Source: Nocardia pseudovaccinii NBRC 100343 (GTDB lineage Bacteria; Actinomycetota; Actinomycetes; Mycobacteriales; Mycobacteriaceae). Taken from it: a stretch of 64,000 nucleotides of DNA. The DNA lies in assembly GCF_001613225.1 (NCBI RefSeq), contig NZ_BDBY01000135.1, positions 1-64,000 of the forward strand, read 5' to 3'. Positions 4,165 to 43,613 of this stretch are shown here, one piece after another (the stretch's first letter is position 1; every line of letters starts with the position of its first letter). The notes beneath the pieces are model-generated. The model was given only the letters and a program-made list of their open reading frames with translations, was not told the DNA's origin and made no database searches. Made by a program: the position numbers and the translations under genes.

Positions 4165-4183
4165 TACTGTATAAGTATCTGCA
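4165..4183. promoter_or_regulatory. Island operator, degenerate copy A
   Basis: TACTG TATAAGTAT CTGCA. The left arm and the 9-bp spacing match the TACTG-N9-CAGTA dyad found across the island; the right arm has two mismatches. It ends 17 bp before the ATG of the DUF35 gene at 4200 and lies 126 bp from the divergent PPOX-type gene, so binding here could control both operons. A GGAGG ribosome binding site follows at 4188-4192. Confidence 0.55.
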
Positions 4184-4199
4184 AGCTGGAGGAACGAAT

Positions 4200-4616
4200 A
4201 TGCGCAGAATGATTGCCCCTGAGATCTCCAACTGGCCGGACGAAGAGTTCCGGCTCGTCGGCGGGTCGTGTGGCGAGTGCGGTGCGACCGTCTTCCCCAT
4301 CCAGGACCTGTGCCCGCGATGCAGTCGGCAGTCGATCGAATCGATCACACTACCGCGCAACGGAACCCTGGTGGCCTGGACCACCCAGGGGTTCCTCCCG
4401 GGAGCCCCCTACCTCGGCGACGAGACGGCGAAAACCTTCGTTCCCTTCGGTGTCGGTCTGGTGCAGCTCGGCGATGTCATCCGAGTCGAAGCTCGGCTCA
4501 CCGAAAACGACCCGGACAAGTTGGAATTCGGAATGGAAGTAGCGCTGACAGCCGTGCCGCTCGGTACCGACCCCGAAGGCAACGATGTGCTGACCTTCGC
4601 CTTCCAACCAGCCTGA
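4200..4616 (+). CDS. DUF35 zinc-ribbon/OB-fold protein, partner of the thiolase-like protein
   Basis: A 138-aa stand-alone DUF35 protein. A rubredoxin-like zinc ribbon is formed by C24-x2-C27 and C38-x2-C41, followed by the OB-fold part (GTLVAWTTQGFLPGAPYLG and FGVGLVQLGDVIRVEARL). DUF35 proteins bind and stabilise thiolase-like partners and help position acyl-CoA substrates, as ChsH2 and similar proteins do in steroid degradation. The partner gene follows 17 bp downstream. The start is set by the GGAGGAACGAAT leader directly before the ATG. The same domain occurs fused to a thiolase in the divergent operon, so the island has both arrangements. Confidence 0.85.
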   Translation: MRRMIAPEISNWPDEEFRLVGGSCGECGATVFPIQDLCPRCSRQSIESITLPRNGTLVAWTTQGFLPGAPYLGDETAKTFVPFGVGLVQLGDVIRVEARLTENDPDKLEFGMEVALTAVPLGTDPEGNDVLTFAFQPA

Positions 4617-4633
4617 GGGACAGGATTTTTCAC

Positions 4634-5782
4634 ATGACCAACGATGTAGCGATCATCGGTGTGGGTATGCATCCATTCGGCCGCTTCGAAGGCAAGACGG
4701 CGATGCAGATGGGGACGGACGCCATTCGCGCCGCGCTCGCCGACGCGGGATTGGAATGGCGAGACATCCAATTCGCCGTCGGCGGCAGTTGGGAGGTCGC
4801 CAATCCCGACGCGATCGTGGGCCTGATGGGACTGACCGGGATCCCCTTCACCAATGTCTTCAACGCCTGCGCCACCTCGGCCAGTGCCACCGAAGCCTGC
4901 GCCGACGCAATCCGACTCGGCAAATACGACATCGGCATCGCGATCGGCATGGACAAACATCCACGCGGCGCGTTCACCGTCGACCCCACCCTCGTCGGCA
5001 TGCCCAAGTGGTACGGCGAGAACGGCCAATACCTCACCACGAAGTTCTTCGGGATGAAAGCCAACCGCTACCTGCACGATCACGGGATCTCCGCGCAGAC
5101 CCTCGCCAAGGTCGCCGCCAAGAACTACCGCAACGGCGTATCGAATCCGAACGCGTTCCGCCGCAAGGCGGTCTCCGAGGCCGACATCTTGGCCGCGCCG
5201 ATGCTCAACTACCCGCTGACCCACTACATGTTCTGCGCGCCGGACGAAGGTGCCGCCGCCGTGATCATGTGCCGAGCCGACATCGCCCACCGCTACACCA
5301 GCAAGCCGATATACGTGCGCGCTGTCGAGGTGCGCACGCGCAAATACGGTGCGTACGAGGTCAATACGACCTACGCACCGGTGCAGGAAGACGTGTCCCC
5401 CTCGGTCTACGCATCACGCGCGGCGTTCGAGTCCGCGGGCATCTCACCGAAGGACATCGACGTCCTCCAGCTCCAGGACACCGATGCCGCAGCCGAGGTC
5501 ATCCACATGGCCGAGGCCGGATTCTGCGCCGACGGAGACCAGGAGAAGCTGGTCGCCGACGGTGTCACCGAGATCTCCGGTGCGATGCCGGTGAACACCG
5601 ACGGCGGACTCATCGCGAACGGCGAGCCCATCGGCGCCTCGGGAATGCGCCAGCTGCACGAACTCGTCCTGCAACTGCGCGGGACCGCGGGAGACCGTCA
5701 GATAGCCGGTGCTCCCAATGCCGGTTTCGCGCTGCTCTACGGCGCCCCGGGCACCGCAGGGGCAACAATCGTCACCACCTGA
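4634..5782 (+). CDS. Thiolase-like (SCP2-thiolase/acetyl-CoA acetyltransferase family) protein
   Basis: The ATG at 4634 gives 382 aa starting MTNDVAIIGVGMHPFGRF, the standard N-terminus of lipid-transfer-type thiolases. The nucleophile block NACATSA is present with C79, unlike the fused paralogue at 750. The HGG motif of true thiolases is replaced by NTDGG, followed by ANGEPIGASG. With Cys kept and His lost, thiolytic activity is uncertain; it may act as a thiolase, an aldolase or an acyl-CoA hydrolase together with the DUF35 protein encoded just upstream. The two genes form a plus-strand pair behind operator A. Confidence 0.85.
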   Translation: MTNDVAIIGVGMHPFGRFEGKTAMQMGTDAIRAALADAGLEWRDIQFAVGGSWEVANPDAIVGLMGLTGIPFTNVFNACATSASATEACADAIRLGKYDIGIAIGMDKHPRGAFTVDPTLVGMPKWYGENGQYLTTKFFGMKANRYLHDHGISAQTLAKVAAKNYRNGVSNPNAFRRKAVSEADILAAPMLNYPLTHYMFCAPDEGAAAVIMCRADIAHRYTSKPIYVRAVEVRTRKYGAYEVNTTYAPVQEDVSPSVYASRAAFESAGISPKDIDVLQLQDTDAAAEVIHMAEAGFCADGDQEKLVADGVTEISGAMPVNTDGGLIANGEPIGASGMRQLHELVLQLRGTAGDRQIAGAPNAGFALLYGAPGTAGATIVTT

Positions 5783-5931
5783 TCTTCTGGCGAGGTACGT
5801 GGTGGACAGCAGAGCCACGAACAGGGTGACGATTGTGATGGATGCGACCCCGGGCACTCCGGTACGTCGAACCCAGCCATGCGGCGATCAGGCCGGCATC
5901 AGTAGTACGCAGCCGCGCGGAGCGCTGCCGG

Positions 5932-7915: not shown

Positions 7916-7951
7916 GTGACACCTCCAGTCGTGCCAGGCGGAAACCGCCGA

Positions 7952-7970
7952 TACTGATAGCATTACAGTA
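7952..7970. promoter_or_regulatory. Island operator, perfect-arm copy B
   Basis: TACTG ATAGCATTA CAGTA, both 5-bp arms perfect with 9-bp spacing. It lies in the 89-bp gap between the LLM oxidoreductase stop and the Rieske oxygenase start, 37 bp upstream of the GTG. This marks an internal promoter for the Rieske operon inside a longer run of minus-strand genes. Confidence 0.75.
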
Positions 7971-8004
7971 ATATATATGGCATGGGTCTCGCGACCCCCT
8001 GCGG

Positions 8005-8919: not shown

Positions 8920-8955
8920 TGCGCCGGTGTCCTTGTCGAGTGCCGCGCTCCCCCT

Positions 8956-15102: not shown

Positions 15103-15121
15103 TACTGTATACCTATCGGTA
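15103..15121. promoter_or_regulatory. Island operator, near-perfect copy C
   Basis: TACTG TATACCTAT CGGTA, one mismatch in the right arm. It lies between the lipoprotein terminator and the six-gene run starting at 14911, 192 bp from that ATG. The stretch 14912-15102 holds no gene I can support and probably forms the leader of that transcript. Confidence 0.65.
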
Positions 15122-15242: not shown

Positions 15243-15740
15243 TCAGCAGGCCGAGGACTGACCACCCTGGAGTGCCAGCAGGGCGCAGAATGTCGTCGCG
15301 GCGACCTTCCACTGCGCGCCATCCTTGATCGCCTGGCCGGTTTGGTCCGGCAGCACCGGATTGCCTCCCATCAGCAGGGTGTAGGTGACATCGGCATGGG
15401 TGGCGTCGACCGGCTTGACCGCAGACACCGTGACCGAGATGCCCTGCGCCTGCGGGTTGCCCGCCTGCGCCTGCAACACCGGCGCGAAGACCTGCCCCTT
15501 CTCCACGACCGCGATCCGCTGGTCCGCGGGCGCCCCGCCATTGAAGAAGGTCACATACGCATCGGTAACGGCCTTGATGGTCGCCGAATCAGCCGAAGCT
15601 GCCACAGTGGCGGCGCTGGACGATGCGGCCGACGTCGATGCCACGGCACTCGAATCGTCGGAACAACCGGTCAGAACCGCAGCCGCAATGACCGCCGGAC
15701 CACAGCACGCCACGGCCGCGCGAAGGAGTGAATCACGCAT
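15243..15740 (-). CDS. Small secreted lipoprotein, possibly MTB12-like
   Basis: 165 aa from ATG 15740; GAGG seven bases upstream supports it over the in-frame ATG at 15752. A signal peptide (AAVACCGPAVIAAAV) ends in the lipobox LTGC with C26, so the mature protein is lipid-anchored. A Ser/Ala-rich linker follows, then a compact domain with AVTDAYVTFFNGGAPADQRI and DATHADVTYTLLMGGNPVLP, ending in CALLALQGGQSSAC where two Cys may pair. The pattern resembles mycobacterial low-molecular-weight antigen MTB12-type proteins, though this is from memory. A perfect-arm operator lies 31 bp upstream, so it is tightly tied to the regulon and could help deliver the substrate at the cell surface. Confidence 0.75.
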   Translation of the reverse strand: MRDSLLRAAVACCGPAVIAAAVLTGCSDDSSAVASTSAASSSAATVAASADSATIKAVTDAYVTFFNGGAPADQRIAVVEKGQVFAPVLQAQAGNPQAQGISVTVSAVKPVDATHADVTYTLLMGGNPVLPDQTGQAIKDGAQWKVAATTFCALLALQGGQSSAC

Positions 15741-16126
15741 GGAAATCCTCATCTCGAGTGCCAACTTGTGTACTGTAATAAATACAGTATGGACGCCTGG
15801 CGGATTGCTCGAATTTTGCCCAGGTGCGCCAGCAGGCACCTGAGCTGACGCCGCCGCCAGCACGCACGGAAGTATAACTTCATTTTCGTACATGAGAATG
15901 TAATTTCCGGAGATTGTGACGACGGACCTTCGCTCCAGACGTATTGCCCGACCGGTCCGCACCGGCGCGGGGCGGGCAAACCATTTGCAGGTACACGGCC
16001 GAGTGATCCGATTTCGCGTGAGTATGCCCAGAATGGGCACTCAGGAAGGCCAACGGGCACCGGGTGCGCAGGAGCGTTACCATCACAGAGAATCCAATTA
16101 CCGGGTGAAGGCGCCCGGTCGCACGA
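15741..16126. other. Intergenic region between lipoprotein and SDR genes
   Basis: This 386-bp divergent gap holds operator D next to the lipoprotein gene. An AT-richer patch at 15870-15910 contains a small dyad, TACAT-GAGA-ATGTA (15889-15902), which may belong to the SDR promoter. No coding frame here looks real. Confidence 0.5.
15771..15789. promoter_or_regulatory. Island operator, perfect-arm copy D
   Basis: TACTG TAATAAATA CAGTA, perfect arms and almost fully palindromic including the spacer (TACTGTA and TACAGTA). It lies 31 bp upstream of the lipoprotein ATG on the minus strand, a position expected to overlap the promoter. Confidence 0.8.
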
Positions 16127-19939: not shown

Positions 19940-19958
19940 TACTGTCAAGCATTCTATA
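19940..19958. promoter_or_regulatory. Island operator, degenerate copy I
   Basis: TACTG TCAAGCATT CTATA, left arm perfect, right arm with two mismatches. It sits between the divergent P450 (19835) and SDR (19991) genes, 33 bp before the SDR ATG, in an AT-rich patch of otherwise GC-rich sequence. Confidence 0.45.
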
Positions 19959-19990
19959 ACGCACATCCGTGCAGCGGAACGGTGGTATTC

Positions 19991-20833: not shown

Positions 20834-20852
20834 TACTGTATATATTACAGTA
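20834..20852. promoter_or_regulatory. Island operator, perfect-arm copy E
   Basis: TACTG TATATATTA CAGTA, both arms perfect. It ends 48 bp before the GTG of the P450 2 gene and so controls the five-gene operon that includes TetR 1, which would give autoregulation. Confidence 0.8.
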
Positions 20853-24113: not shown

Positions 24114-24125
24114 AAGGACGATGTT

Positions 24126-24926: not shown

Positions 24927-24928
24927 CA

Positions 24929-25678
24929 ATGGCGAAACGGGTCACCGTCGAGCGGCGGCAGCGACGCGAACGCGGCTCGCTGAATCCGGAGGACATCATC
25001 GATGGCGCCTTCGAACTCGCGCAACAGGTTTCGATCGACGGTCTGAGCATGCCTCTGCTGGGTAAGCATCTCAATGTCGGGGTCACCAGTATCTACTGGT
25101 ACTTCCGCAAGAAGGACGATCTGCTCAATGCGATGACCGACCGCGCGCTGCGACTGTATGTGTATGCCGTGCCCTACCCGTCCGTCGAAGCGAGCAATTG
25201 GCGTGAGACGCTGGGCAATCACGCGCGGACCATGCGGCGCACCTTCCTGGCGAGCCCGATCCTGTGCGATCTGATTCTGGTCAGATCGGCGCTGAGTCAG
25301 CACGCCGGGCGGGTGGGCGCCGAGCAGGTGGAGCGGACGGTGGCCAGCCTGGTCGAAGCGGGACTATCGGTCGAGCAGGCCTTCGACATCTACTCGGCGG
25401 TCAATCTGCATATTCGCGGATCGGTTGTGCTACAACGGCTCTACGACAAGAACCAGGAGCTGGAGGCGGAGGGCCGGGCGTACTACGACAGCATTCTGGT
25501 CGAGCCCGAGACGACACCGCTGCTCGCCGAGGCCATGGCCAAGGGCCTACGATCGGGTGCGCCGGACGACCGCAATTTCGAATACGGTCTGCGCTGCATC
25601 CTCGATCACGCGAGCCTGCTGATCCAGCTGAATTCGTCGGCGCACGCGAATTCCGGTGACACCACACCGGCCTCGTAG
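24929..25678 (+). CDS. TetR-family regulator 1, candidate regulator of the island
   Basis: 249 aa, ATG 24929 preceded by AGGAGG. The HTH lies at residues 21-65, with recognition part VGVTSIYWYFRKKDDLLNAM. The rest is a ligand-binding helical domain related to TetR_C-type regulators. Its first 70 residues align without gaps to TetR 2 (43774), and positions 50-70 differ by a single Asp/Glu exchange, so both should bind the same DNA. It is the last gene of an operon whose promoter carries a perfect TACTG-N9-CAGTA dyad, consistent with autoregulation. The ligand is probably an acyl-CoA intermediate, as for KstR-type regulators (inference). Confidence 0.88.
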   Translation: MAKRVTVERRQRRERGSLNPEDIIDGAFELAQQVSIDGLSMPLLGKHLNVGVTSIYWYFRKKDDLLNAMTDRALRLYVYAVPYPSVEASNWRETLGNHARTMRRTFLASPILCDLILVRSALSQHAGRVGAEQVERTVASLVEAGLSVEQAFDIYSAVNLHIRGSVVLQRLYDKNQELEAEGRAYYDSILVEPETTPLLAEAMAKGLRSGAPDDRNFEYGLRCILDHASLLIQLNSSAHANSGDTTPAS

Positions 25679-27364: not shown

Positions 27365-27367
27365 CGG

Positions 27368-28828
27368 TCACCTCACCAGATCCGAGGCTTGCCACAGCGG
27401 GAACACCTGCTGTGGATCGCACTGTTCGTCGACGATCCATTTGCACATCCGCCGTACCGGTTCCATCGCGTCCTGTGGAATCGTGAAGTTGACACTGGCG
27501 GCATAGCCCAAAGAGGTGAGTCGTTGCGCGCCGAACAGCGGAAGCCGATCGCGCAGTTCGGTTTTCAGCGACTCGGGATAGATTCCGATCGTCTGGGTAT
27601 AGGCGTTGACCGCGTCGGTCACCTTGTCGATGCTGTCGACCGGGACGATATTGGCCACCCGCCCGGACAGCATCATCGAATAGTGCACCGGTTCGTCGAG
27701 CTGGGATACGACGATCGCGCCCTCGCTGTTCTCACCGCCGTAGACGCGGTACCAGTCGTCGTTCAGCCGCGACCCCTCGACATGTTCGAGTAGCGTGCGG
27801 TTGACGACCTTCGGCTTGGTGCTCAGCGATTCGGGCAGCTGCAGCATCGATTCGTAGATGAGTTCACCGAGTCGGTTCGCCCGTTCCAGTCCCTGCTCGT
27901 CGGTGCCGCTGAGCAGATAGATGACCCGGGCATTGACGCAACCCTCCTGATTGCCCGCCCCGACGTCGCAGGCCGCGCGCACGGCAACCTCGCGCAAGGT
28001 GTCCTCGCTCTCGAACGCCTCGGATCCGATGATGGTCGCGCTGCGCTTGGGATCGAGCGAAATCAGTTCCAGCCCCGGCTGGATGTACTTCGTCACGTGC
28101 TTGACCGAGGCGAAACCGCCCCAGGCGACGATCTTCTCGATGTGCTCGGGCTTGTAGAGCTGCTCCTCGAAGGCGGTATCGCCGCCCTTCCAGTAGCCGA
28201 CCGACAGGTGTTCGGTAATCGGGTGGTCGGGGGCGATATCGCGCAGGGTGCGCGCGATGGCCATTGCCGTGAGCGGATCGTTGGACGGCGCCTTGATGAT
28301 CACGTCACTGCGCGTGATCGCCGAACGCAGGATGGTGACCGCCGAAACAAGTCCACCATTGCCCGCGGCGATATGCAGCGTGCGGGAGCCGAATGCGCGG
28401 ACCCGGAGATTGCGACCATCGAGCGAGGTGCGGGGCACCCAGCCTTCGAGATACTCGATGCCGACCGAGGTTTCGGCGAGCTCACGAATGAACTCGCGGC
28501 TGAACATCGCCTGCAGTCCGACGTAACCGGTGCGCAGGATCGACTCAGGGAACGGGTTGGCCAGGATGGACGCCTCGTACGCCTCCTGGATGTAGGGGTT
28601 CTGGTCGAGCTCGAGATGCTTCCCGAGCTCCTCCAGCAGATCGAGGATCTCCTCGAAGGACAACGCGTACAGATCGGCCATATCCGCCGGACTGCGCAGC
28701 GGCAGCGCGTTGACGTACTTGTGCGGATCCGGCGCCTGGAAGCTGTGTTCGAGGCGGGTGCCGAACGAAACCAGATCGTCGGTGATCACCTCACCGCGAA
28801 TGAATAGCGGAACGGTGAAAGCGCTCAC
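27368..28828 (-). CDS. LuxC-type acyl-CoA reductase
   Basis: 486 aa of the LuxC acyl-CoA reductase family (ALDH-like fold). NADPH-binding and acyl-transfer regions are visible: HIAAGNGGLVSAVTILRSA, IIKAPSNDPLTAMAIART, KIVAWGGFASVKHV, and the probable nucleophile C297 in AGNQEGCVNARV. LuxC reduces an acyl group received from an acyl-enzyme partner to the aldehyde. The LuxE-type partner is encoded directly upstream with a 4-bp overlap, but no luciferase (LuxAB) or LuxD gene is present. The pair therefore probably makes aldehydes from lipid acids for metabolism, not light. An aldehyde dehydrogenase gene lies at 33600. Confidence 0.85.
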   Translation of the reverse strand: MSAFTVPLFIRGEVITDDLVSFGTRLEHSFQAPDPHKYVNALPLRSPADMADLYALSFEEILDLLEELGKHLELDQNPYIQEAYEASILANPFPESILRTGYVGLQAMFSREFIRELAETSVGIEYLEGWVPRTSLDGRNLRVRAFGSRTLHIAAGNGGLVSAVTILRSAITRSDVIIKAPSNDPLTAMAIARTLRDIAPDHPITEHLSVGYWKGGDTAFEEQLYKPEHIEKIVAWGGFASVKHVTKYIQPGLELISLDPKRSATIIGSEAFESEDTLREVAVRAACDVGAGNQEGCVNARVIYLLSGTDEQGLERANRLGELIYESMLQLPESLSTKPKVVNRTLLEHVEGSRLNDDWYRVYGGENSEGAIVVSQLDEPVHYSMMLSGRVANIVPVDSIDKVTDAVNAYTQTIGIYPESLKTELRDRLPLFGAQRLTSLGYAASVNFTIPQDAMEPVRRMCKWIVDEQCDPQQVFPLWQASDLVR

Positions 28829-30249
28829 GACCGGAACTCCTTCAGGAAATCGATGGCCTCGTTGTGGACCTCATGGCTGGCCGCGCACGAGATGCGGTCG
28901 TCGTCGACACCCTGCTTCTCGCTGAAGCGGATGATGTGGTGCTCGAGAGCGATTGTGGTTCGCCCGCACGGGCATTCGAGTGACCAGTCGACGGTCACCT
29001 CGTCGCCGGTGATCACACCGCCCCAATGGCTCTGGTTGACCAGGTCATATACCGCGAACCGTCCGGTCTGGCGGCCGGTGCGTGGCAACGGCTCGCTGGT
29101 ATCGGGGTCGAGCACATACGGAATCACCCACGGCTGGAGGTGATAACGGCCCTCGGCGCACGCGGCGTGGATGCCGTTGTGTTCGGAGAACCCGTACCCC
29201 TCCTGCACCTCGTTGCCGTAGAACTCCCTGATGACGTCCATGAATCCCTCGGGCAGCACGTCACCGGCCTTGCGCCCGCCGCCGGTCTGGATCGCCGAAT
29301 TCGGCGCGAACGCACCGCGAATGCCCTCCGCGAGCCCGGCCGAGGCCAGGTCGTACATGAGCTTGTAGGTGCTGGACATGAACACCCGCTTGCCCCGCAG
29401 CTGGTTGGTCAACCGCTGCAGGAACTCGCTCACCTCGAGCGGCGCGCGCTGCTGCATGGCGATGAACTCGTCCTTGCGGGCGGCCAGTGCCGGATCGATC
29501 TGCAGGCGATCCAGCTCGCCCTTGGCGGCGGCGGCCCGCATCTTCGCCGCCAGGAACATCATGTCGGTGTCGAGATGGCCGGAATACAGGGCGTGGAACC
29601 GGCTCTCGTCACCGCCGGTGAACTCGAGTTTGATCCACGGCACCACCCGAGTGTGGCCCACCCGGCCGCCGCTGTAGTTCGGCCAGATCACATCGACGAC
29701 GGGATCGAGCTGGTCCTCGGTCGGCTCCTGTCCGAACTGCTGGAACAGCGTCGCGCGCCAGACCTGCATGCCCTCAACGGTGGTGAGCTCGTCCTTGGGG
29801 ATGATCGAGAGCGTTCCGGTTGTGCCCGACGAGGTGATCACCTGCAGCTTGCTGGCGGACTCCACGGCCTCGAGCCACTCGTCGATGGACTGCGCGCCCG
29901 AGGCATCCACCCTGGACAGATCGTGGGTGGTGACCTTGGCCAGCCAGCGGGTCATCAGATCGAAGCGCTTGTTGTCGATCAGCGCCGGCGGATAGGACTT
30001 GTAGGTGGTGTGCGAGAACATCAGCGGCACAACGTCATTGAACTTCTCGACCGTACTGATGCCGAGCCGGTCGGCCAGTTTGCGCACCATCTCGATGCCC
30101 TCGCGGTGCTGCGCGAACCGCAGCATCATCGCCTCGCGCTGCAATTCCTCGAGTTCCGCGCGGGGAAGGCTGTGCATTTTCGTCACGGACTCGTCGAAGT
30201 AATCGAATGGGTGGTCCATGAAAGTCACGACAGTGTGCTTGCTCATCAA
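28825..30249 (-). CDS. LuxE-type acyl-protein synthetase
   Basis: 474 aa. The adenylate-forming signature is SSGTTG (140-145), followed by PNYSGGRVGHTRVVPW and a GYGFSEHNGIHAACAEG block where the acyl or adenylate pocket closes. LuxE proteins activate a carboxylic acid with ATP, carry the acyl group on a C-terminal Cys and hand it to LuxC. Here a C-terminal CPCGR motif (about residue 435) and further Cys in ISCAASHEV are candidates. The protein is longer than Vibrio LuxE (about 370 aa), with an N-terminal extension. It starts the three-gene operon; its promoter lies in the 363-bp gap upstream. Confidence 0.83.
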   Translation of the reverse strand: MMSKHTVVTFMDHPFDYFDESVTKMHSLPRAELEELQREAMMLRFAQHREGIEMVRKLADRLGISTVEKFNDVVPLMFSHTTYKSYPPALIDNKRFDLMTRWLAKVTTHDLSRVDASGAQSIDEWLEAVESASKLQVITSSGTTGTLSIIPKDELTTVEGMQVWRATLFQQFGQEPTEDQLDPVVDVIWPNYSGGRVGHTRVVPWIKLEFTGGDESRFHALYSGHLDTDMMFLAAKMRAAAAKGELDRLQIDPALAARKDEFIAMQQRAPLEVSEFLQRLTNQLRGKRVFMSSTYKLMYDLASAGLAEGIRGAFAPNSAIQTGGGRKAGDVLPEGFMDVIREFYGNEVQEGYGFSEHNGIHAACAEGRYHLQPWVIPYVLDPDTSEPLPRTGRQTGRFAVYDLVNQSHWGGVITGDEVTVDWSLECPCGRTTIALEHHIIRFSEKQGVDDDRISCAASHEVHNEAIDFLKEFRS

Positions 30250-33542: not shown

Positions 33543-33573
33543 AACTGTAAGTGATACGGTATTTATTACAACA
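33543..33573. promoter_or_regulatory. Island operator, two overlapping degenerate copies F
   Basis: AACTG TAAGTGATA CGGTA (33543-33561) and TACGG TATTTATTA CAACA (33555-33573) overlap by seven bases. Each keeps the 5-9-5 spacing with two or three arm mismatches. They sit 47 bp upstream of CoA ligase 2; the ALDH gene on the same strand ends at 33600, upstream of this site. Confidence 0.5.
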
Positions 33574-35096: not shown

Positions 35097-35421
35097 GCGT
35101 GATGTCTTTCCAGTCGCAACTCAGCTGAGATCGAGCGGGCGATCGCGCATCCGCGCCGAAGGCCGACCCAGATCCTGTTGTCCGCGGTCGCGTCCGAGCG
35201 CGCCGAGACGGAAATAGTTAATCATCCAGTAATGCCAACTGTAACATCTCCCACAAGAGCGAGGCAGGTGAACGCCGATACGTGGCGCAACCAATGGATC
35301 GGCGACCGCTTGCGGCGATATACTGAATATTTTACAGTTGATGACACAAGAGCGTCGGTGCTCGACAATGAGCCTTGGTTCGCGCGGCCACGATCCGGGT
35401 CCGGTGCGCTAGGAGAGAATT
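35097..35421. other. Divergent promoter region
   Basis: A 325-bp gap between the divergent ALDH and the 146-aa gene. It contains operator G at 35321-35339 and a lone half-site CAGTA at 35227. A frame crossing it is GC-poor and unlike a protein, so I regard the region as regulatory only. Confidence 0.5.
35321..35339. promoter_or_regulatory. Island operator, near-perfect copy G
   Basis: TACTG AATATTTTA CAGTT, one mismatch in the last base. It lies 82 bp before the ATG of the 146-aa gene at 35422 and 225 bp from the divergent ALDH start. Confidence 0.65.
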
Positions 35422-35862
35422 ATGAGCGACAACGGGGTCCCCGGTCTCACATCGCGAACCGTCGAGGAACTGCTCGGCGCGGGCGAGGCGCTGGCCCAGC
35501 AGGTGCGGACGAAGATCCCGCACAGCCCGCGGCCGGTATTCCTGCACTACATCGAGCAGACCTTCGACGCGTTGCGCACAAAGCTCTCGCGCGGACTCGA
35601 CCCGCATCCGGACACTCCGGCGCAGCAGCTGTGCCTGTATCTGATGGTCGCGTACGCGGAGCGACGGATCGGATCGCTCGATGCCGATCTCATCCGAATC
35701 CACCATGCGCTGCTCGCCGACGACGACGCTCTGGCCGAAGTCTGCCGCGTCGGCGGGGACCCCGGTCAGTCCTACGACTTCGTCGCACTCGGCGACGCAC
35801 TGACCGGACGCGGCATGAGCGCGTTCTTCGCCCCGCTCGAACCGGACGACCTGGTCGCCTGA
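35422..35862 (+). CDS. Conserved-looking protein of unknown function, 146 aa
   Basis: ATG 35422 follows AGGAGAGAAT. The product is soluble and mostly helical by composition: VEELLGAGEALAQQVRTKIP, then HYIEQTFDALRTKLSRGLDP, and CLYLMVAYAERRIGSLDAD. There is no signal peptide, membrane helix or metal motif. I do not recognise the family. It is followed 24 bp later by an alpha/beta hydrolase gene and preceded by an island operator, so it belongs to the regulon. Confidence 0.65.
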   Translation: MSDNGVPGLTSRTVEELLGAGEALAQQVRTKIPHSPRPVFLHYIEQTFDALRTKLSRGLDPHPDTPAQQLCLYLMVAYAERRIGSLDADLIRIHHALLADDDALAEVCRVGGDPGQSYDFVALGDALTGRGMSAFFAPLEPDDLVA

Positions 35863-35886: not shown

Positions 35887-36810
35887 GTGGGTTCGGATTC
35901 CACCTTCCACCCCGAACTCCGCATTGCGCGCTACCTGCGGCGCTCCACGGTCGGTGCGCGCACCATCGGGCCGGTCCGCAGGCTGACGAAACTCACCGGG
36001 CGCGGTCGACCGGCGGGCGGGACGATCGAGGCGGTCGACGCGCACGTCTCGGTGCGCGTATTCCGACCGGCACGGGCCCCGCGCCAGGCACCGGGCCTGC
36101 TGTTCATCCACGGGGGCGGCTACGTCATCGGCACCGCCGCGATGGGAGATAGCTTCTGCCGCCGAGTCGCGGACCGCCTGGGGGTCATCGCGGCATCGGC
36201 GGAATACCGGCTGGCACCCGAGCACCCCTTCCCGACACCGCTCGAGGACTGCTATGCCGCGTTGCGCTGGCTCGCCGACCAACCGGATGTCGATCCGGAC
36301 CGTATCGCGATCGCCGGGGAGAGCGCGGGCGGTGGCCTGGCCGCCGCGCTTGCGCTGCTGGCCCACGAACGCGCCGAGGTGCACCCGGTACTGCAGGTGC
36401 TGTCCTATCCGATGCTGGACGATCGGACCACCGCGCGCACCGATATCGCCCACCGCGGACTACGTCTGTGGAGCCCGCGGAACAACGGCTTCGGATGGCA
36501 GTCCTACCTGGGCCCGGCCGCGACCGGCACGGTGCCCGCACTGGCCGCGCCGGCCCGATACGAGAACCCGGCCGGGGTCTGCCCGGCCTTGATCGGCGTC
36601 GGCACCAACGATCTGTTCCACGACGAGGACATCGCCTATGCCGAACGCCTGCGCCAGGCCGGTGTCCCCTGCACGGTGCACGTGGTGCACGGCGCGTACC
36701 ACGGCTTCGATCTGATCGAGACTTGGGCGCCGGTCTCACGAGCCTTTCTCCAGGAGCGGCTGACGGCATTGAACGACGTACTGAACGGTGGTGCACACAC
36801 TCGCGGCTGA
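35887..36810 (+). CDS. Alpha/beta hydrolase, hormone-sensitive-lipase (HSL/GDXG) family
   Basis: 307 aa from GTG 35887 (AGAGGACGAACC leader). The HSL oxyanion motif is HGGGY (75-79), the nucleophile elbow GESAG (S146), and the catalytic His lies in GAYHGFDLIE near the C-terminus; an Asp in GTNDLFHDED completes the triad. The N-terminal cap is short. Family members are carboxylesterases of acyl esters, including esters of sterols and lipids. Here it may release the acid or alcohol that enters the pathway. It is the second gene of the operon behind operator G. Confidence 0.88.
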   Translation: MGSDSTFHPELRIARYLRRSTVGARTIGPVRRLTKLTGRGRPAGGTIEAVDAHVSVRVFRPARAPRQAPGLLFIHGGGYVIGTAAMGDSFCRRVADRLGVIAASAEYRLAPEHPFPTPLEDCYAALRWLADQPDVDPDRIAIAGESAGGGLAAALALLAHERAEVHPVLQVLSYPMLDDRTTARTDIAHRGLRLWSPRNNGFGWQSYLGPAATGTVPALAAPARYENPAGVCPALIGVGTNDLFHDEDIAYAERLRQAGVPCTVHVVHGAYHGFDLIETWAPVSRAFLQERLTALNDVLNGGAHTRG

Positions 36811-36987: not shown

Positions 36988-37596
36988 ATGAGCGAAGTTC
37001 AGGACAAGCCGCAGGGCCGCGAAGCCCAGCGTCTGCAGACCCGGCAGCGCGTATTCGACGCGGCCATCGCCGAATTCAAGAACGTCGGCATGGCCGATGC
37101 CGATATCGGCACGATTGTCGAGGCGGCGGGCGTCGCGCGCGGCACCTTCTATTTCCACTTCCCGAGCAAAGAACACGCGCTGCTGGAACTGGAGGCACGT
37201 GAGGAAGCACGGATCGCCAAGGAACTCACCCGGTTTCTCGCCGCACCGCACGATCTCCAATCGGCGCTACGGAAAACGATTCAGCTGATAGTCGGCCTGG
37301 AACGCCGCCTGGGCAGCCTGCTGTTCAAAGAGCTGCTGGCGATTCACTTTTCGCCGACCCGGCCACTGGACGACGAATGGCGTGAGCATCCGGTGATCGT
37401 CCTGGTGGTCGAGGAGATCGAGCGCGCCCGCGACAACGGCGAGGCCGAGATCGCCGTCGATCCCTATCACAGCGCGGTGTTCTTTCTGCTCGGGCTCTAC
37501 GCCCTGCTGACCACGACCTCGGGCTCGAAGGCGTTGCGCGCCAACGCACTCGACAACTACCTGATCACCGTTCTGCGCAGTCTGGAGCCTCGATGA
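36988..37596 (+). CDS. TetR-family regulator 3, local regulator of the MoxR-VWA block
   Basis: 202 aa from ATG 36988 (MSEVQDKPQGREAQRLQ). The HTH is IGTIVEAAGVARGTFYFHFP followed by SKEHALLELE, a standard TetR fold entirely different from TetR 1 and 2. The C-terminal helical domain contains VGLERRLGSLLFKELLAIHF and a hydrophobic AVFFLLGLYALL stretch that likely forms the dimer interface. Two operators of the form TCATTGA-N6-TCARTGA lie upstream. The next genes, in the same direction with short gaps, are the 32-aa microprotein, VWA protein and MoxR ATPase, so it probably controls that block. Confidence 0.88.
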   Translation: MSEVQDKPQGREAQRLQTRQRVFDAAIAEFKNVGMADADIGTIVEAAGVARGTFYFHFPSKEHALLELEAREEARIAKELTRFLAAPHDLQSALRKTIQLIVGLERRLGSLLFKELLAIHFSPTRPLDDEWREHPVIVLVVEEIERARDNGEAEIAVDPYHSAVFFLLGLYALLTTTSGSKALRANALDNYLITVLRSLEPR

Positions 37597-37656
37597 AGCA
37601 ATCATCGCGGACCACCCATCGAACCACTTCGAACCGACGAATATGGAGATACGGCC

Positions 37657-37755: not shown

Positions 37756-37780
37756 GCAGGTCCGGCCCCTGCGGCAGTGG

Positions 37781-39316
37781 ATGTTCGTCATGAAGGGTGC
37801 GGTGCAAGGGCTCTCGATCGAGCGCAGTTGCGCCGTCACGGCCGTCGCATTCTCCGGACGTCGCCGGGAGGGCGTGCGGCTGGTGACCGGTGAGCGGCGC
37901 AGTTTCGGTCTGAACACCACCCGCACCGTCGTGCAGGTCCCGTATCCACCCGTCGCCGCGGATTGGACCAGAGCAACGCTCACATGCGGTGTGGCACTGC
38001 AATGTTCGCCATCGAAAGACCGCATCGCACGGTACCCGTTGCACGAGCTGTCACCCCGGGAACTGGGCGCGCTGTCGATCGTCGAGGGTGGTGTGGCGGC
38101 GGGCTGGATCGCCGACCGGCTGCCCGGCCTGCTGCCCGAACTCCGTCGGCTGCTACCCCACCTCGAGATCGCCGAGCACGACCTCGATGGCGACGAAATA
38201 ATGGACCGTGCACTGGGTTTGGCGCGATCACGGCAGCAAATTCGCGGGCATCCACTGCTCGGCAAGCTCCCGCTGGCGGCTCCCGCACGCGGCGGCCTGG
38301 CCGTAGCGGCACGTCGGGCCTACTCCCGGATGCCGTGGACGTCGACGCGCAGCGACTCCTATCGCGTCATGTCGATACCGGTCGGCGGTGACGGCGGCAG
38401 CCGCAATACCAACCTGCCCCCACCGAGCCGACCGGAGAACGAAGACGTCGAAATCCGAGCCGATCAACGCGCGGGCCTGCCCTATCCGGAATGGAACCTC
38501 TGGACGAAAAGCTTTCTGCGCGACCACGTCGCGGTGCTGGAACGCAAACATGCCACCCGCCCGCGACCGCTCGCACCGGTCTCCCCCGACATCCGCCGCT
38601 GGTTCGAAGAACACACCCACCGCGCCATGCGCAGCGGCCTCGAGGACGGGTCGGATCTCGATATCGACCGGTATGTCGGCCATTACGTCGACATGCTCTC
38701 CGGTGCGACCGCCGAGCCACGGGTGTTCCGCGAGTTGCTGCCCAGTTCCCGTGACGTCGCCACCGCGGTACTCCTGGACGGTAGTTCCTCCCTCGGGGTG
38801 CACGGCGGCCGGATCTTCCGGCTCGAATTGGCCTGTGCCGACGCCCTGTCCCGAGCCATGACGCTCGCCCGGGAACGCCACGGCCTGTTCGTCTTCACCG
38901 GCAATACCCGCCACCGGGTCGAGGTGCGCTGCCTGAAGGACTTCGACGATGCCCGTTTCGTGGACCCGAGCAGTCTGGGGCTGATCACCGGCGGCTACAC
39001 CCGGCTCGGCGCGCCACTGCGGCACCTGACCCGCCGCCTGCTAGAGCAGCCCTCGGAGCGGCGCCTGATCATCGTGATCGGCGACGGCCTGATGTCCGAC
39101 GAAGGCTACGAGGGCCGCTACGCGTGGGCCGATGTCGCGCACGCCATCGAAGAGGCCGACGACGCTGGCGTCGCGATCTACTACCTCGCCATCGGCCCCA
39201 CCCGCGTGGATCCGCTCCCCGAGGTATTCGGCGCGCGCCGTTCGCGCCGGATCCTGCAGGTGGAGGAGTTGCCCCGCGTGCTCGCCCATATCCACCGCGA
39301 GTTGGTCGCCCAATGA
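37781..39316 (+). CDS. VWA-domain protein, NorD/CbbO-like
   Basis: About 511 aa from ATG 37781; an in-frame ATG at 37790 is an alternative, and neither has a strong ribosome binding site. The N-terminal half is poorly conserved (LLPELRRLLPHLEIAEHDLD). The C-terminal VWA domain holds the MIDAS motif DGSSS at about residue 333, the Thr in GGYTRLGAPL and the Asp in VIGDGLMSDEGYEG. NorD/CbbO-type VWA proteins work with a NorQ/CbbQ MoxR ATPase to remodel or insert metal into a target enzyme (nitric oxide reductase, Rubisco). The matching ATPase gene follows at once. Confidence 0.85.
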   Translation: MFVMKGAVQGLSIERSCAVTAVAFSGRRREGVRLVTGERRSFGLNTTRTVVQVPYPPVAADWTRATLTCGVALQCSPSKDRIARYPLHELSPRELGALSIVEGGVAAGWIADRLPGLLPELRRLLPHLEIAEHDLDGDEIMDRALGLARSRQQIRGHPLLGKLPLAAPARGGLAVAARRAYSRMPWTSTRSDSYRVMSIPVGGDGGSRNTNLPPPSRPENEDVEIRADQRAGLPYPEWNLWTKSFLRDHVAVLERKHATRPRPLAPVSPDIRRWFEEHTHRAMRSGLEDGSDLDIDRYVGHYVDMLSGATAEPRVFRELLPSSRDVATAVLLDGSSSLGVHGGRIFRLELACADALSRAMTLARERHGLFVFTGNTRHRVEVRCLKDFDDARFVDPSSLGLITGGYTRLGAPLRHLTRRLLEQPSERRLIIVIGDGLMSDEGYEGRYAWADVAHAIEEADDAGVAIYYLAIGPTRVDPLPEVFGARRSRRILQVEELPRVLAHIHRELVAQ

Positions 39317-39338
39317 TGTTAGGAATTCCGGAGTTCCG

Positions 39339-40136
39339 ATGACAACCGATCTGTACTATGCCAGCGGCACCGAGGTGCAACTGTTCGAATGGGCCTTCCA
39401 GCAGCACATGCCGGTCATGCTCACCGGACCGACCGGCTGCGGCAAAACGCGATTCGTCGAGCATATGGGCCACCTGCTCGGTCGCCCGGTGGTCACGATC
39501 AGCTGCCACGACGATCTCACCAGCTCCGATCTGGTCGGCCGATTCCTGGTATCCGGCGGCGACGTCGCCTGGCGGGACGGCCCACTGACCAAAGCCGTCA
39601 AATCCGGTGCGATCTGCTACCTGGACGAGGTCGTCGAAGCCCGGCACGACTCGCTGGCCATACTGCATTCGCTCACCGACCACCGGCGCACGCTGTTCCT
39701 CGATCGTGCCGACGAAGTGGTGTCCGCGCCCGCCTCGTTCATGCTCGTCTGCTCCTACAATCCGGCCTACCGCAGCTCACTGAAGGAGTTGAAGCCCTCG
39801 CTGCGACAGCGGTTCGTCACCATCGCCATGGGTTATCTGCCGCCCGAGCGCGAGGCCGAGGTGCTGGTCGCGGAGACCGGTATCGATCTTTCCGTCGCAC
39901 GGCGACTGGTCAACTGCGCCAACACCATTCGCAATGCCGATGACGTCTTCCATTTCGAATCGCCGTCGACGCGCGTGCTGGTGGCGGCGGCGCGGCTCAT
40001 CGCCGCGGGCGCGAACGAACTCGAGGCCGCCGACGTATGCGTCCTCGCGCCGCTGAGCAGCGACGGCGCCATCAACGAAGGCCTACGCGAGATCGCGGCG
40101 GCCAGCCTGCTCACCGCCGAAGACCCGGCCGTGTAG
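39339..40136 (+). CDS. MoxR-type AAA+ ATPase, NorQ/CbbQ-like
   Basis: 265 aa from ATG 39339. Walker A is GPTGCGKT (30-37), Walker B AICYLDEV (91-98), sensor 1 lies in FMLVCSYNPAY and the arginine finger region in LKPSLRQRFVTIAMGYLPP. Length and motifs fit the CbbQ/NirQ/NorQ/GpvN group of MoxR ATPases, which form hexamers that act with a VWA protein on one specific metalloenzyme. No NorBC or Rubisco genes are in the window; the likely client is the six-helix membrane protein two genes on. The gene is 22 bp after the VWA gene. Confidence 0.9.
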   Translation: MTTDLYYASGTEVQLFEWAFQQHMPVMLTGPTGCGKTRFVEHMGHLLGRPVVTISCHDDLTSSDLVGRFLVSGGDVAWRDGPLTKAVKSGAICYLDEVVEARHDSLAILHSLTDHRRTLFLDRADEVVSAPASFMLVCSYNPAYRSSLKELKPSLRQRFVTIAMGYLPPEREAEVLVAETGIDLSVARRLVNCANTIRNADDVFHFESPSTRVLVAAARLIAAGANELEAADVCVLAPLSSDGAINEGLREIAAASLLTAEDPAV

Positions 40137-40157
40137 TCACCCGAGGAGGACCGTTCG

Positions 40158-40277
40158 ATGAACGAACAAGATCGGCAGCGCCGCCGAGCGCTCATCGTTT
40201 TCCAGATCGTCATATACGGATTTCTACTGGCGATGTTCCTGATCCAAATACAGATGTATATGACCAGGGACTGGTAG
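40158..40277 (+). CDS. Membrane microprotein, 39 aa
   Basis: From ATG 40158, with GAGGAGG ten bases upstream, a frame encodes MNEQDRQRRRALIVFQIVIY followed by GFLLAMFLIQIQMYMTRDW. A positively charged N-terminus (RQRRR) and a single hydrophobic helix indicate an N-in membrane protein. The strong ribosome binding site and tight packing (21 bp after MoxR, 8 bp before the next gene) make it a real gene. No family recognised. It may be a small subunit of the complex formed by the neighbouring membrane proteins. Confidence 0.65.
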   Translation: MNEQDRQRRRALIVFQIVIYGFLLAMFLIQIQMYMTRDW

Positions 40278-40285
40278 GGGCGATC

Positions 40286-41011
40286 ATGAATATGCCGACA
40301 TTCACCCTGCGCCGGAGCACCGGAAAGACAGCGCCGGAAACCTCGGTGACCTACGACGAACACCACGAGAAAAGTCGCCGCGCGCAGCGCCGGGCCGACC
40401 AGTGGCTCACTGTCGGAACCGCGCTGATGGGCACCTTCATCTTCGGATTCGTCGGATTGCCGATCTTTCTGCGCGGAGTGTGGTTGCAGCGCAAGGCACA
40501 ACGCGACGGGCTGTCCGTCCGGCCGATCATCGTCACCCTGATCGGCTATCTGGTCATCCTCGACGCCTTCCTCAACAGCATCGGCTGGGTGCTGGACCTA
40601 TTCGCCAACCACACCGTTGTCACCCGCGTGTTCTTCACCGCGTGGGGCAATTTCGTCGATGCCGGATACTTCTGGCACTACAACGAATTGTGGATCGGCG
40701 GCGCGGGCGCGCCCGGCGAAAAAGGCTGGGAAGTCGCGCTGATATTCACCGTATTCCCGATGCGGGTCGCGGCCGCGATCGCATTTCTGCAGATGAAGCG
40801 GTGGGGCCACCAGTGGCTGATCGTCACGTGCTGGTTCGGTGTGGTGATCTGGATCGGCTACGTCGTCAATATGACCATGTACGCCGATGTGCGCTTCCAC
40901 GGCGTCGTGCTGCCGGTGACCGGCTGGTGGTTGTACGACATCTTCTACATCACGCCATTCCTCGCGATCCCCTATCTGCACACGGTCAACCGCGAGATCT
41001 TCTCCGACTGA
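40286..41011 (+). CDS. Six-helix integral membrane protein of unknown family, candidate MoxR-VWA client
   Basis: 241 aa from ATG 40286. After a charged N-terminus (about 45 residues, with DEHHEKSRRAQRRAD) there are about six hydrophobic segments, e.g. GTALMGTFIFGFVGLPIFL, PIIVTLIGYLVILDAFL, EVALIFTVFPMRVAAAI, and VVIWIGYVVNMTMYA. Polar and metal-capable residues occur close to helices: FVDAGYFWHYNELWIGG, KRWGHQW, ADVRFHGV and YLHTVNREI. This distribution of His, Asp and Glu could coordinate metal, but I cannot match it to PmoA/C, AmoC, alkane hydroxylase (no HxxxH/HxxHH boxes) or NorB. The context of MoxR and VWA suggests it needs assisted assembly. Confidence 0.7.
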   Translation: MNMPTFTLRRSTGKTAPETSVTYDEHHEKSRRAQRRADQWLTVGTALMGTFIFGFVGLPIFLRGVWLQRKAQRDGLSVRPIIVTLIGYLVILDAFLNSIGWVLDLFANHTVVTRVFFTAWGNFVDAGYFWHYNELWIGGAGAPGEKGWEVALIFTVFPMRVAAAIAFLQMKRWGHQWLIVTCWFGVVIWIGYVVNMTMYADVRFHGVVLPVTGWWLYDIFYITPFLAIPYLHTVNREIFSD

Positions 41012-41038
41012 CCTCGAATCCGGTTCCAGGAGAACACC

Positions 41039-41473
41039 ATGAGCAACAAATCACCCGCGGCCGAGTCGTCGCCGGAACAAGATCTGCCGCTCGGTACGAC
41101 GGCACCGTTCGCGCGAATGCACAAGTGGCTCAAGCGCGGCATCCTCGTGTGCCTGATCGCGTTGGTCGTCGAGGGTTCGCTGACCGTGCCCGCCCTCGCC
41201 CTCTGGTACGGCTGGCCCACCTTGTCGATCACCGAAATCTGCGACGAGATGATGAAGGTGCGCTACTCCGACGACACGCTCGAATGCAACCAGGGTGCGC
41301 TCAACGCGCCACCGCTCGGCGGCAAACCCGAAGCGGCAGGCCAGACCACCGCCCAGGATCAATGGGGAGTGCAGCCGAAACCGCAGTGGAAGCATATCGG
41401 TTACCGTGAACTCGTCCGGATTCACAACGAGCGGATCGCCCGCGAACAGGCACAGCAATCGGGCCACCGGTAA
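41039..41473 (+). CDS. Single-helix membrane protein of unknown function, 144 aa
   Basis: ATG 41039 has CAGGAGAACACC before it. A cytoplasmic N-terminus (40 residues) leads to one membrane helix RGILVCLIALVVEGSLTVPA and an outside domain with two Cys (ITEICDEMMKVRYSDDTLEC) that could form a disulphide or bind a cofactor. The C-terminus is polar with YRELVRIHNERIAREQAQQ. It follows the six-helix protein by 27 bp and is probably its complex partner. I recognise no family. Confidence 0.65.
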   Translation: MSNKSPAAESSPEQDLPLGTTAPFARMHKWLKRGILVCLIALVVEGSLTVPALALWYGWPTLSITEICDEMMKVRYSDDTLECNQGALNAPPLGGKPEAAGQTTAQDQWGVQPKPQWKHIGYRELVRIHNERIAREQAQQSGHR

Positions 41474-41477
41474 GACC

Positions 41478-42635
41478 TTGCGATCACTCGACACCACCCT
41501 CGGCCTCGGCATGGCCGCACGAGAAGCCGTCCGGGCCGGACTCGATCGCACCCTCCCCGGCCCGGCGGCGATTCCACTGCGCATCCACGAGGTGAACGAA
41601 CACTGGCTCGGCGCGGCACTCGGTTTGCGGCCGGGCACGATCACCTCGGTGCACGTGCTGGACGCGCATTCCGGTACGGCGGCGCGCGCTCGTATCACCG
41701 TGAAATCCGACAGCGGCGAGGTGCCCGAGCAGCTGTTCGTGAAATTGCCGCCGCGCAACTATTTACAGCACGTCCTGATGAACGTCTTCCACCTCGGGAC
41801 CCGCGAGGTCATCGCCTATCGCGCACTGGGCGCGAATCCCTCGGTGCGGGTGCCGAGATGCTATGTCGCGCAATGTGATCGACTCCGGCGCCGCAGCATC
41901 CTAGTGCTGGAGGATCTGTCGGGATCCGCGCAGTTCCGTACTGTCGTCGATACGGTCACGCGCGCCGAGGCTGCGGCCGTGATCGACGCCATGGCAGATC
42001 TGCACCTCACGTTCTGGGGTAGCGGCCGGTTCGCCGACGACCTGCGGCCGCTCACGGTTCGAACGACGGCGGATCTCCGGCTCGGTGATCTCATCCGCCG
42101 CCGGTTCCTTCACGAGATCACCGGGCATACCAAAGATCTGATACCCGAGCCGATGAAGCGTCAGTGCCGGATCTTCTATCAGCGCAGCGCGGATATCGAT
42201 GCCTTCTGGGCCGCGCAGCCGCAGACTCTGATCCATGGCGACCCGCACCTGGGCAACCTGTTCTTCACCGATACCGGGCCCGGCTTCCTGGACTGGCAGA
42301 TCGCCACGGCCGGGGTCGGCATCCGCGATGTCGCCTACTTCGCGAACGCCTCCGTCGAGCCGGACCTGCTCCGCACGATCGAACGAGAACTCGTCGAGCG
42401 ATACACGGCCCGGCTCGCCGCCGCCGGGATCGGAGTCGACCTCGAACGCCTGTGGACGCTGTATCGCGCGGGTATCACCGAACTCTTTCTCGCGGCCGTC
42501 TGCACCGCCGAGGCCGGGGAGCGGATGCAGCCGTTCGAGGTGTCGCGGGTCGGCGTCGTACGTGCCGTCGCCGGTGCCGCGGCACACGACAGCTTCGCGG
42601 TGCTTGCCTCGCTCGTCGACGGTGAGCGAGTCTGA
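41478..42635 (+). CDS. APH/ecdysteroid-kinase-like phosphotransferase
   Basis: About 385 aa if started at TTG 41478; the ATG at 41511 is an alternative giving 374 aa. Kinase features are VPEQLFVKLPPRNYLQ (Lys of the N-lobe), SILVLEDLSGSAQF (hinge), the catalytic loop LIHGDPHLGNLFF at about residue 250, and the metal site FLDWQIATAG. This is the aminoglycoside phosphotransferase-like or DUF1679 type, whose members in lipid-degrading actinobacteria phosphorylate small alcohols; antibiotic resistance is not implied. It ends the TetR 3 block with 4 bp spacing from the previous gene. Confidence 0.8.
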   Translation: MRSLDTTLGLGMAAREAVRAGLDRTLPGPAAIPLRIHEVNEHWLGAALGLRPGTITSVHVLDAHSGTAARARITVKSDSGEVPEQLFVKLPPRNYLQHVLMNVFHLGTREVIAYRALGANPSVRVPRCYVAQCDRLRRRSILVLEDLSGSAQFRTVVDTVTRAEAAAVIDAMADLHLTFWGSGRFADDLRPLTVRTTADLRLGDLIRRRFLHEITGHTKDLIPEPMKRQCRIFYQRSADIDAFWAAQPQTLIHGDPHLGNLFFTDTGPGFLDWQIATAGVGIRDVAYFANASVEPDLLRTIERELVERYTARLAAAGIGVDLERLWTLYRAGITELFLAAVCTAEAGERMQPFEVSRVGVVRAVAGAAAHDSFAVLASLVDGERV

Positions 42636-42645
42636 CGCGCTGGGC

Positions 42646-42765
42646 GGCCGTCCCCGGGCTCGGACGCAGGCGGCCGTCGGAAGATCGGACGCAGGCGCCC
42701 TCGGGATCGGAGTCAGGGACCCCCGGGATCGAGGTCAGGTGGCCCTTCGGGTATCGGGCTCAGGT
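42646..42765. repeat. Degenerate tandem repeat, about five units of 22-26 bp
   Basis: Five imperfect copies of a unit like CCCTCGGGATCGGAGTCAGG follow one another between the convergent phosphotransferase and SDR 4 genes; later units end in GTCAGG or CTCAGGT and earlier ones in GACGCAGGC. The last copy covers the SDR stop codon. It may have arisen by slippage and could act in transcription termination. Confidence 0.55.
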
Positions 42766-43557
42766 GAAATCCGAACCGCCGTCGACATTGACATTCGCAC
42801 CGGTCATATACGAATTTCGCCGCGAGGCCAGAAAGGCGACGACCGGACCGATCTCCTCGGGGCGGCCCGCCCGGGGCAGCTGCGCCGGATGTCCGTAATG
42901 CTCGGCGATCTCGGCCATCAGCAGATAGGGATCGTCGCTCTCGACGCCGACCGAGTGAGCCCAATCGACCAGCGCCGGGGTCACGAAGGTGCCGGGCGAG
43001 ACGACATTCACCAGAATCTCTTCCGCGGCAAGCAACAGTGACAGATTCTTGGACGCACTCGTCAGCATCGCCTTCGCGGCGGTATAGGCCGCCAGCGGAA
43101 TGCTCTGCCGCTGCGTCGAATGCGCCGAAAAGTTCACTATCCGCGCCCATTCGGCCTTGCGCAGCAACGGCAGCGCCGCACGCACGCTGCGCACCATCGA
43201 CAGCACGCCGTCCTCGACGGCCTCGAGCCACTGGTCGTCGGTGAGGATGTCGAACCGGCCTTGCACAGTCGGCCCGACTGTATTGACCAGCACATTGAGT
43301 TCGCCATGCCAGCGCTGCCCCAGTTCGGCGAACGCGGCGGCGATCTGATCGGCGTCGCGCACGTCCGCGACCAGCCCGATGGCGTCGGGGCTACCGCGGT
43401 GGGTCAGGTCCTTGACCGCGTCATCCAGGTCGGGGCGGGAACGCCCCAGCACCGCCACCCGAGCGCCGTCGTCGGCCAAGCAGCGAGCGGCGGCAAGTCC
43501 CATGCCCCGGCTACCGCCCACGACCACCGCTGCCGCGTCGGTCAATCCCAAATCCAT
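42760..43557 (-). CDS. SDR-family oxidoreductase 4
   Basis: 265 aa. The cofactor motif is VVVGGSRGMGLAAA with GGSRG in place of TGxxxGIG, and VLGRSRPDL follows strand 2, where Arg suggests NADP. VNTVG replaces NNAG. The catalytic residues are S144 (NFSAHS), Y158 and K162 (YTAAK), and the end reads MTGANVNVDGGSDF. Reduction or oxidation of a ring or side-chain hydroxyl is likely. A perfect-arm island operator lies 38 bp upstream, shared with the divergent TetR 2 gene. Confidence 0.87.
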   Translation of the reverse strand: MDLGLTDAAAVVVGGSRGMGLAAARCLADDGARVAVLGRSRPDLDDAVKDLTHRGSPDAIGLVADVRDADQIAAAFAELGQRWHGELNVLVNTVGPTVQGRFDILTDDQWLEAVEDGVLSMVRSVRAALPLLRKAEWARIVNFSAHSTQRQSIPLAAYTAAKAMLTSASKNLSLLLAAEEILVNVVSPGTFVTPALVDWAHSVGVESDDPYLLMAEIAEHYGHPAQLPRAGRPEEIGPVVAFLASRRNSYMTGANVNVDGGSDFT

Positions 43558-43594
43558 TGCGCTACCGCCTCCGTCGCGAGCTTATAGATAAGCA

Positions 43595-43613
43595 TACTGT
43601 ATCTTTATCAGTA
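43595..43613. promoter_or_regulatory. Island operator, perfect-arm copy H
   Basis: TACTG TATCTTTAT CAGTA, both arms perfect. It lies between SDR 4 (38 bp) and TetR 2 (160 bp), so it can serve SDR 4 directly and autoregulate TetR 2 from the far side. Confidence 0.8.

Follow-up and report, generated by a model that had tools for sequence, protein, structure and literature searches.

Organization of the island and its dyad sites

The window analyzed here is the whole 64,000-nucleotide stretch (positions 1 to 64,000 of contig NZ_BDBY01000135.1) from the 9.94-Mb draft genome of Nocardia pseudovaccinii NBRC 100343, which consists of 492 contigs. It carries an island of catabolic genes in which a 19-bp dyad, TACTG-N9-CAGTA, recurs in intergenic DNA, together with two paralogous genes for TetR-type regulators, TetR1 and TetR2. 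The dyad is predicted, with high confidence, to be the operator of the repressor subfamily that is encoded twice in the island by these two genes. Gene families identified with Pfam and NCBIfam include thiolases with an OB-fold partner, a Rieske oxygenase with a KshA_C domain, P450s, SDRs, amidohydrolases, acyl-CoA ligases, acyl-CoA dehydrogenases, CoA-transferases, enoyl-CoA hydratases, a carboxyltransferase, an aldehyde dehydrogenase and TetRs. About 30 genes, the mce operon left aside, are headed by the sites of the window when genes are grouped by strand and spacing, a grouping that involves judgement.

Perfect arms with the 9-bp spacer are found at four places. The site at 7952..7970, overlapped by a weak copy at 7964, precedes by about 36 bp the Rieske oxygenase gene on the minus strand, whose start is near 7916. 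The site at 15771..15789 is located 18-31 bp upstream of a lipoprotein-like gene (15243-15740, minus) and also 338 bp from an SDR gene at 16127. The site at 20834..20852 precedes a P450-SDR-CoA-transferase-enoyl-CoA hydratase-TetR1 run (20901-25678, plus), and that at 43595..43613 lies between an SDR gene (42760-43557, minus) and the divergent TetR2 gene (plus). One mismatch is present in the dyad at 15103..15121, upstream of an amidohydrolase-FadD-amidohydrolase-FadE-FadE-LLM run (14971/14911 to 8005, minus), and in that at 35321..35339, upstream of an alpha/beta hydrolase gene (35887-36810, plus) and of a small unassigned frame at 35422. Two mismatches are present at 4165..4183, between a PPOX gene (3647 to ~4040, minus) and OB-fold/thiolase genes (4200 and 4634, plus), and at 19940..19958, between a P450 gene (18600-19889, minus) and an SDR gene (19982-20776, plus); the former has a counterpart in the relative G167 (see below) and the latter is kept there. 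Upstream of FadD and FadE genes (33484 to 30613, minus), two dyads overlap with a 12-bp shift (33543..33573): one with two mismatches at 33543 and a weaker one at 33555, which scores 16.0 on a matrix built from the six best window sites. Matrix sites in the loci discussed below were counted at a score of 14 or more; the matrix counts within the window itself were dropped as evidence, since they are circular, the matrix being derived from these sites. The sequence-only reading of the window had given these coordinates, all of which were exact on recount. It had also placed the sites in intergenic DNA within about 200 bp of a start codon, and this holds with corrected starts, the distances being ~16 to 190 bp. 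Starts were corrected from domain positions, homologues and sequence, as the gene caller over-extends some of them.

The dyads are more numerous than chance would give, as had been proposed: in 100 dinucleotide shuffles of the window the counts at 0, 1 or 2 mismatches were never reached. Perfect dyads number 4 against a shuffled mean of 0.00, those with at most one mismatch 6 against 0.18 (largest 1), and those with at most two mismatches 25 against 5.84 (largest 12). The spacing is fixed: perfect arms occur in the window 4 times at 9 bp and 0 times at every other spacing from 3 to 18, and in 80 related loci 25 times at 9 bp and 0-2 times at each other spacing. Sites were clustered by their flanks only, which gave 51 flank-distinct clusters; a looser first clustering (10 clusters) was dropped. 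Over these clusters the half-site reads T, A, C, T (0.74), G, T (0.78), A (0.75), A/T, mirrored on the other side. The consensus is TACTGTA-N5-TACAGTA, i.e. TAC-N1-GTA arms with 5 bp between them in a 19-bp unit.

Two regions of the window stand apart. The block at 25745-30246, with an MFS gene, a LuxC-type acyl-CoA reductase gene and an unassigned gene, is without a strong dyad; it is missing from the G167 island and was possibly inserted. A CbbQ/MoxR-type AAA gene (39339-40136) is flanked by two large unassigned genes (37781-41011), and no strong dyad precedes it.

Distribution and conservation of the dyad

Strict dyads are concentrated in the island. Perfect AT-flanked dyads number 6 in the genome, 4 in the window, 2 on a second contig, C207, and 0 elsewhere; the AT-flanked dyads with one mismatch number 11 (window 2, C207 3, elsewhere 6). 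When any flanking bases are allowed, the genome has 11 perfect dyads, 5 of them outside the window and C207. The reading of C207 left out bases 40001-60000 and covered 86,037 bases (86 of 106 kb), in which 8 dyads scoring 14 or more and one overlapping copy were found, adjoining genes for CoA-transferase, amidohydrolase, thiolase, acyl-CoA dehydrogenase, acyl-CoA ligase, enoyl-CoA hydratase and APH/EcKL-type proteins. The regulon thus extends beyond the window, onto C207.

The relative G167 has a complete single-contig genome of 10.4 Mb, of which the 90 kb read are colinear with both the window and C207; because the genes of both are colinear there, the two contigs are inferred to join in this genome. 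All 5 perfect dyads of G167 lie within 75 kb (1655961-1730977), as do 10 of its 15 dyads with at most one mismatch. The gene caller placed 3 of 22 G167 sites inside genes, and these were re-judged from homologue positions. Absent from G167 are the SDR at 16127, the greater part of the lipoprotein-like gene and the window block 25745-30246, for which there is just a partial MFS match in another place. The segment of C207 from ~38 to 85 kb (40-60 kb unread) is not represented at the corresponding position of G167, where ~40 bp separate the flanking genes; this segment (38000-85000) carries site 77875 before an APH/EcKL-type gene. Between two island enoyl-CoA hydratase genes of G167, positions 1729753-1730019 of C1 (in locus L141) encode a 77% match to TetR2 residues 20-109, which looks like the remnant of a third TetR paralogue.

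For 15 sites of this genome paired by score with their counterparts in G167 (a choice favouring the arms), identity is 147/150 positions in the arms, 30/45 in the three central bases and 428/600 (ungapped) in the flanks. Outside Nocardia, seven loci were mapped, and most genes matching the island do so on both contigs, the window's and C207. Relatives of many island genes are present in 54 to 69 of the 80 loci (E 1e-20, paralogues included), and the 19 letters of site 15103 recur identically in many mycobacterial loci. The island has a conserved mycobacterial counterpart. In Mycobacterium lepraemurium (locus L098) the matches to several island genes are fragmented and the site upstream of TetR is missing, with two other sites remaining, a pattern that is perhaps one of cluster decay. 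In M. triplex a DHDPS-family aldolase-like gene (L085:7896-8900) lies inside the mycobacterial cluster, a hint of ring-cleavage chemistry.

The arm TACNGTA is a palindrome by itself. An extra half-site (at least 5 of 7 letters) is located 12 bp outside the 19-mer in 16 of the 51 clusters, against at most 6 at other distances from 7 to 26; before clustering, it was seen on 30 of 196 sides at the 12-bp step and on 0 to 8 elsewhere. This count, free of the shared arm, replaced an earlier count of second dyads at 12 bp (20/51 clusters, none at other offsets), which was biased because the palindromic arm gives half a match free at that distance. An overlapping second dyad with a score of 10 or more accompanies the window sites 4165, 7952, 33543 and 43595. 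One tentative elaboration is that the paralogous TetRs read the same operators, many of which would consist of three half-sites on a 12-bp grid, with two overlapping dimer registers that compete or cooperate; the island, of at least 75 kb, might then be governed by a two-input switch in which the paralogues sense different pathway intermediates.

The TetR pair and alternative explanations

TetR1 (24929..25639, plus) lies at the end of the operon that site 20834 heads, and TetR2 (43774..44484, plus) has a frame open from 43699, with the conserved part beginning at 43774. Both are matched by TetR_N (PF00440; 43.4 and 46.4 bits, cut-off 24) and by TetR_C_1 (PF02909; 52 and 47.3 bits, cut-off 21). 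They are 69% identical to each other, and the next TetR of the genome is 29% identical (E 2e-13); TetR2 is 97% identical to TetR2 of N. vinacea. The sequence VGVTSIYWYFRKK is common to both and is present in all 80 helix matches of the 80 loci, where part of it was fixed by the search pattern. A plasmid search with TetR2 returned nothing at E 1e-40.

Presence of the TetR1/2 subfamily (E at most 1e-60) and of the site (a perfect AT-flanked dyad) was compared in 150 Nocardia genomes and in 401 genomes of the family, 52 of them shared with the 150. Among the Nocardia a site is present in 23 of 28 TetR-positive and 6 of 122 TetR-negative genomes (85 vs 6 sites), and every genome with at least two sites (n=21) carries the subfamily. 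In the family set the figures are 52/70 and 10/331 (90 vs 10 sites), outside Nocardia 45/61 and 10/288, and in the genus labelled g50 35/45 and 0/6. The reversed pattern, counted by hand, gave 10 matches in the 150 Nocardia, 1 of them in TetR-positive genomes, and 41 in the 401 family genomes, 5 of them in TetR-positive genomes. The dyad is thus found mainly where a gene of the TetR1/2 subfamily is present, and is therefore very probably the binding site of that repressor. Dyads at the regulator's own promoter, as expected of a local autoregulated TetR regulon, were found at site 43595 before TetR2 and in 65 of the 80 loci, where a site scoring 14 or more lies at most 400 bp upstream of the TetR gene; at loci of other TetR paralogues of this genome such a site was found in 0 of 15 (best 9.0).

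An autoregulated TetR pair repressing a lipid-catabolic island is the likeliest reading of these patterns. A TetR dimer would read both TACTG arms and, when bound, would block the promoters of the ~30 catabolic genes of the window, of further C207 genes and of the TetR genes themselves. The regulator would act by repression rather than activation, and TetR1 and TetR2 would both recognize the same site. Release would be brought about by a metabolite of a lipophilic substrate, plausibly an acyl-CoA.

Several observations weigh against this reading. The Fisher p values of the co-occurrence tables (5e-17, 2e-39 and 3e-33) ignore relatedness, and TetR and the sites travel together in one gene cluster. 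No upstream site of 14 or more is present in 15 of the 80 loci, six of which score 11.7 to 13.8; 5 of the 28 TetR-positive Nocardia are without a perfect site, and in two of these five (G157 and G168) the 20 kb read contain no site that reaches 14. In five genomes reached through the loci (four Mycobacterium or Mycolicibacterium, one Rhodococcus), hits with at most one mismatch number 6, 13, 4, 4 and 4 versus 2, 11, 3, 4 and 0 for the reversed pattern; the signal there is therefore one of position, not number. As to the sites themselves, frames that are spurious or extended too far make the raw gene calls overlap 4165, 7952, 15771 and 35321. Dyads with two mismatches number 67 genome-wide, fewer than the 111 of the reversed pattern that served as control, and because the control yields more matches these counts were rejected as support. 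An equal density of sites elsewhere in the genome, which the sequence-only reading had named as the outcome that would speak against it, was not seen for strict sites, which cluster in the island; for the two-mismatch sites, which show no excess, it may hold. The last of these observations is the off-consensus element at the mce promoter (44830..44848), which precedes MlaE/yrbE (44911), the first gene of the mce operon, by ~80 bp. It scores 8.2 with the six-site matrix, and a score of 10.0 was also obtained at about -80.

Six loci have a yrbE match, and in 5 of them the arms of the mce element, CACTGTA-N5-AATAGTT (window 44812-44855), are kept at about -80 while its middle varies among four forms; the sixth locus represents a distant operon (42% identity). 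Membership of mce in the regulon is doubtful, as all that its promoter carries is this element, conserved but off the consensus. Of the single regulon proposed from the sequence alone, the part that stands is the assignment of ~30 window genes to the TetR pair, which is consistent with the concentration of sites in the island, the co-occurrence with TetR and the upstream positions; the suggested inclusion of mce is doubtful.

That the dyad serves another island regulator, with TetR1/2 merely travelling along, is unlikely. The candidates are a GntR-type protein and the third TetR of the window (TetR3, 36988-37596), an island gene that G167 retains at 97%; a GntR/FCD gene is present in one mycobacterial locus (L120). 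A TetR3 relative (E 1e-20) is found in only 4 of the 80 loci, against 80 of 80 for the TetR1/2 subfamily (the latter by construction of the set), and no regulator family was recognized among the five otherwise unassigned frames scanned in L085 (L085, L120 and two L065 frames were looked at). A structural or promoter element of the cluster, either a shared promoter type or a co-spread repeat, would account for AT-rich sites close to start codons, and the centre of site 20834 can be read as -10-like. It is a very improbable explanation, as the centre letters vary while the arms are constant, the spacing is fixed at 9, and dyads and TetR presence are coupled across genera. Least credible of all are chance AT-rich palindromes. 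The two-mismatch genome count agrees with chance, but the shuffles never reached the window counts and counterpart dyads are present in other genera; chance is refuted for the strong sites and is left for weak single ones such as 44830.

Relation to known regulators and biological meaning

The nearest solved relatives are tetracycline repressors TetR (classes A, B, D and others), e.g. 5mru (E 6.6e-15), with an alignment that spans most of the protein (query 18-226). Unlike these, TetR1 and TetR2 have another recognition helix and low similarity, and no tetracycline resistance gene was noticed beside either; their scores for the NCBIfam tetracycline repressor model PRK13756 are 77.7 and 76.7 bits, below the cut-off of 265. 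The tetracycline operator tetO is a 19-bp dyad too. KstR (NCBIfam NF033703) has no match to TetR1 or TetR2 at E 1e-5, and TetR3 scores 33.4 bits with it, below the cut-off of 280.

This kind of system, a TetR regulon, is already known from KstR and KstR2, as the accessible part of PMC3068626 describes. The KstR and KstR2 cholesterol regulons of mycobacteria and rhodococci share with the island a TetR-type repressor, an intergenic palindromic operator near start codons, autoregulation, conservation across actinomycetes, and acyl-CoA and oxidation genes that are clustered locally. The 14-bp KstR2 operator given there, AnCAAGnnCTTGnT, differs from the consensus TACTGTA-N5-TACAGTA; the unit here is 19 bp long, with other arms that are spaced more widely, and the system has a pair of paralogous TetRs and a different set of genes. 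Motif X of Rv0767c in Mycobacterium sp. VKM Ac-1817D is likewise a TetR-linked palindrome at P450 and SDR operons and at its own TetR gene, and also at aldehyde dehydrogenase operons; in the available part of PMC6593523 it appears as a figure alone, so its letters are not comparable with the dyad. A mycobacterial TAC-6 bp-GTA motif at fatty acid genes has the same TAC/GTA ends and clusters of 2-3 close sites, but, in the portion of PMC3388012 that was accessible, six bases lie between, in contrast to TAC-N1-GTA arms 5 bp apart and other target genes here. No description of this operator was found in one open-access library, in which logos in figures are unsearchable. An earlier sighting of the dyad is possible, because the mycobacterial TetR motifs in the accessible part of PMC4482099 are listed as logos whose letters are not readable. 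New here are the second contig C207, the conserved mycobacterial counterpart and the extra half-site 12 bp out.

A long run of oxygenases, P450s, acyl-CoA enzymes and regulators can thereby be tested as a single regulon, for which a pair of repressors is named and the operator consensus is sharp. This TetR subfamily recurs together with the operator and the core genes in Nocardia, Rhodococcus, Aldersonia and many environmental or opportunistic mycobacteria, and the consensus therefore offers a way into a catabolic pathway that is conserved but uncharacterised, and to its inducer.

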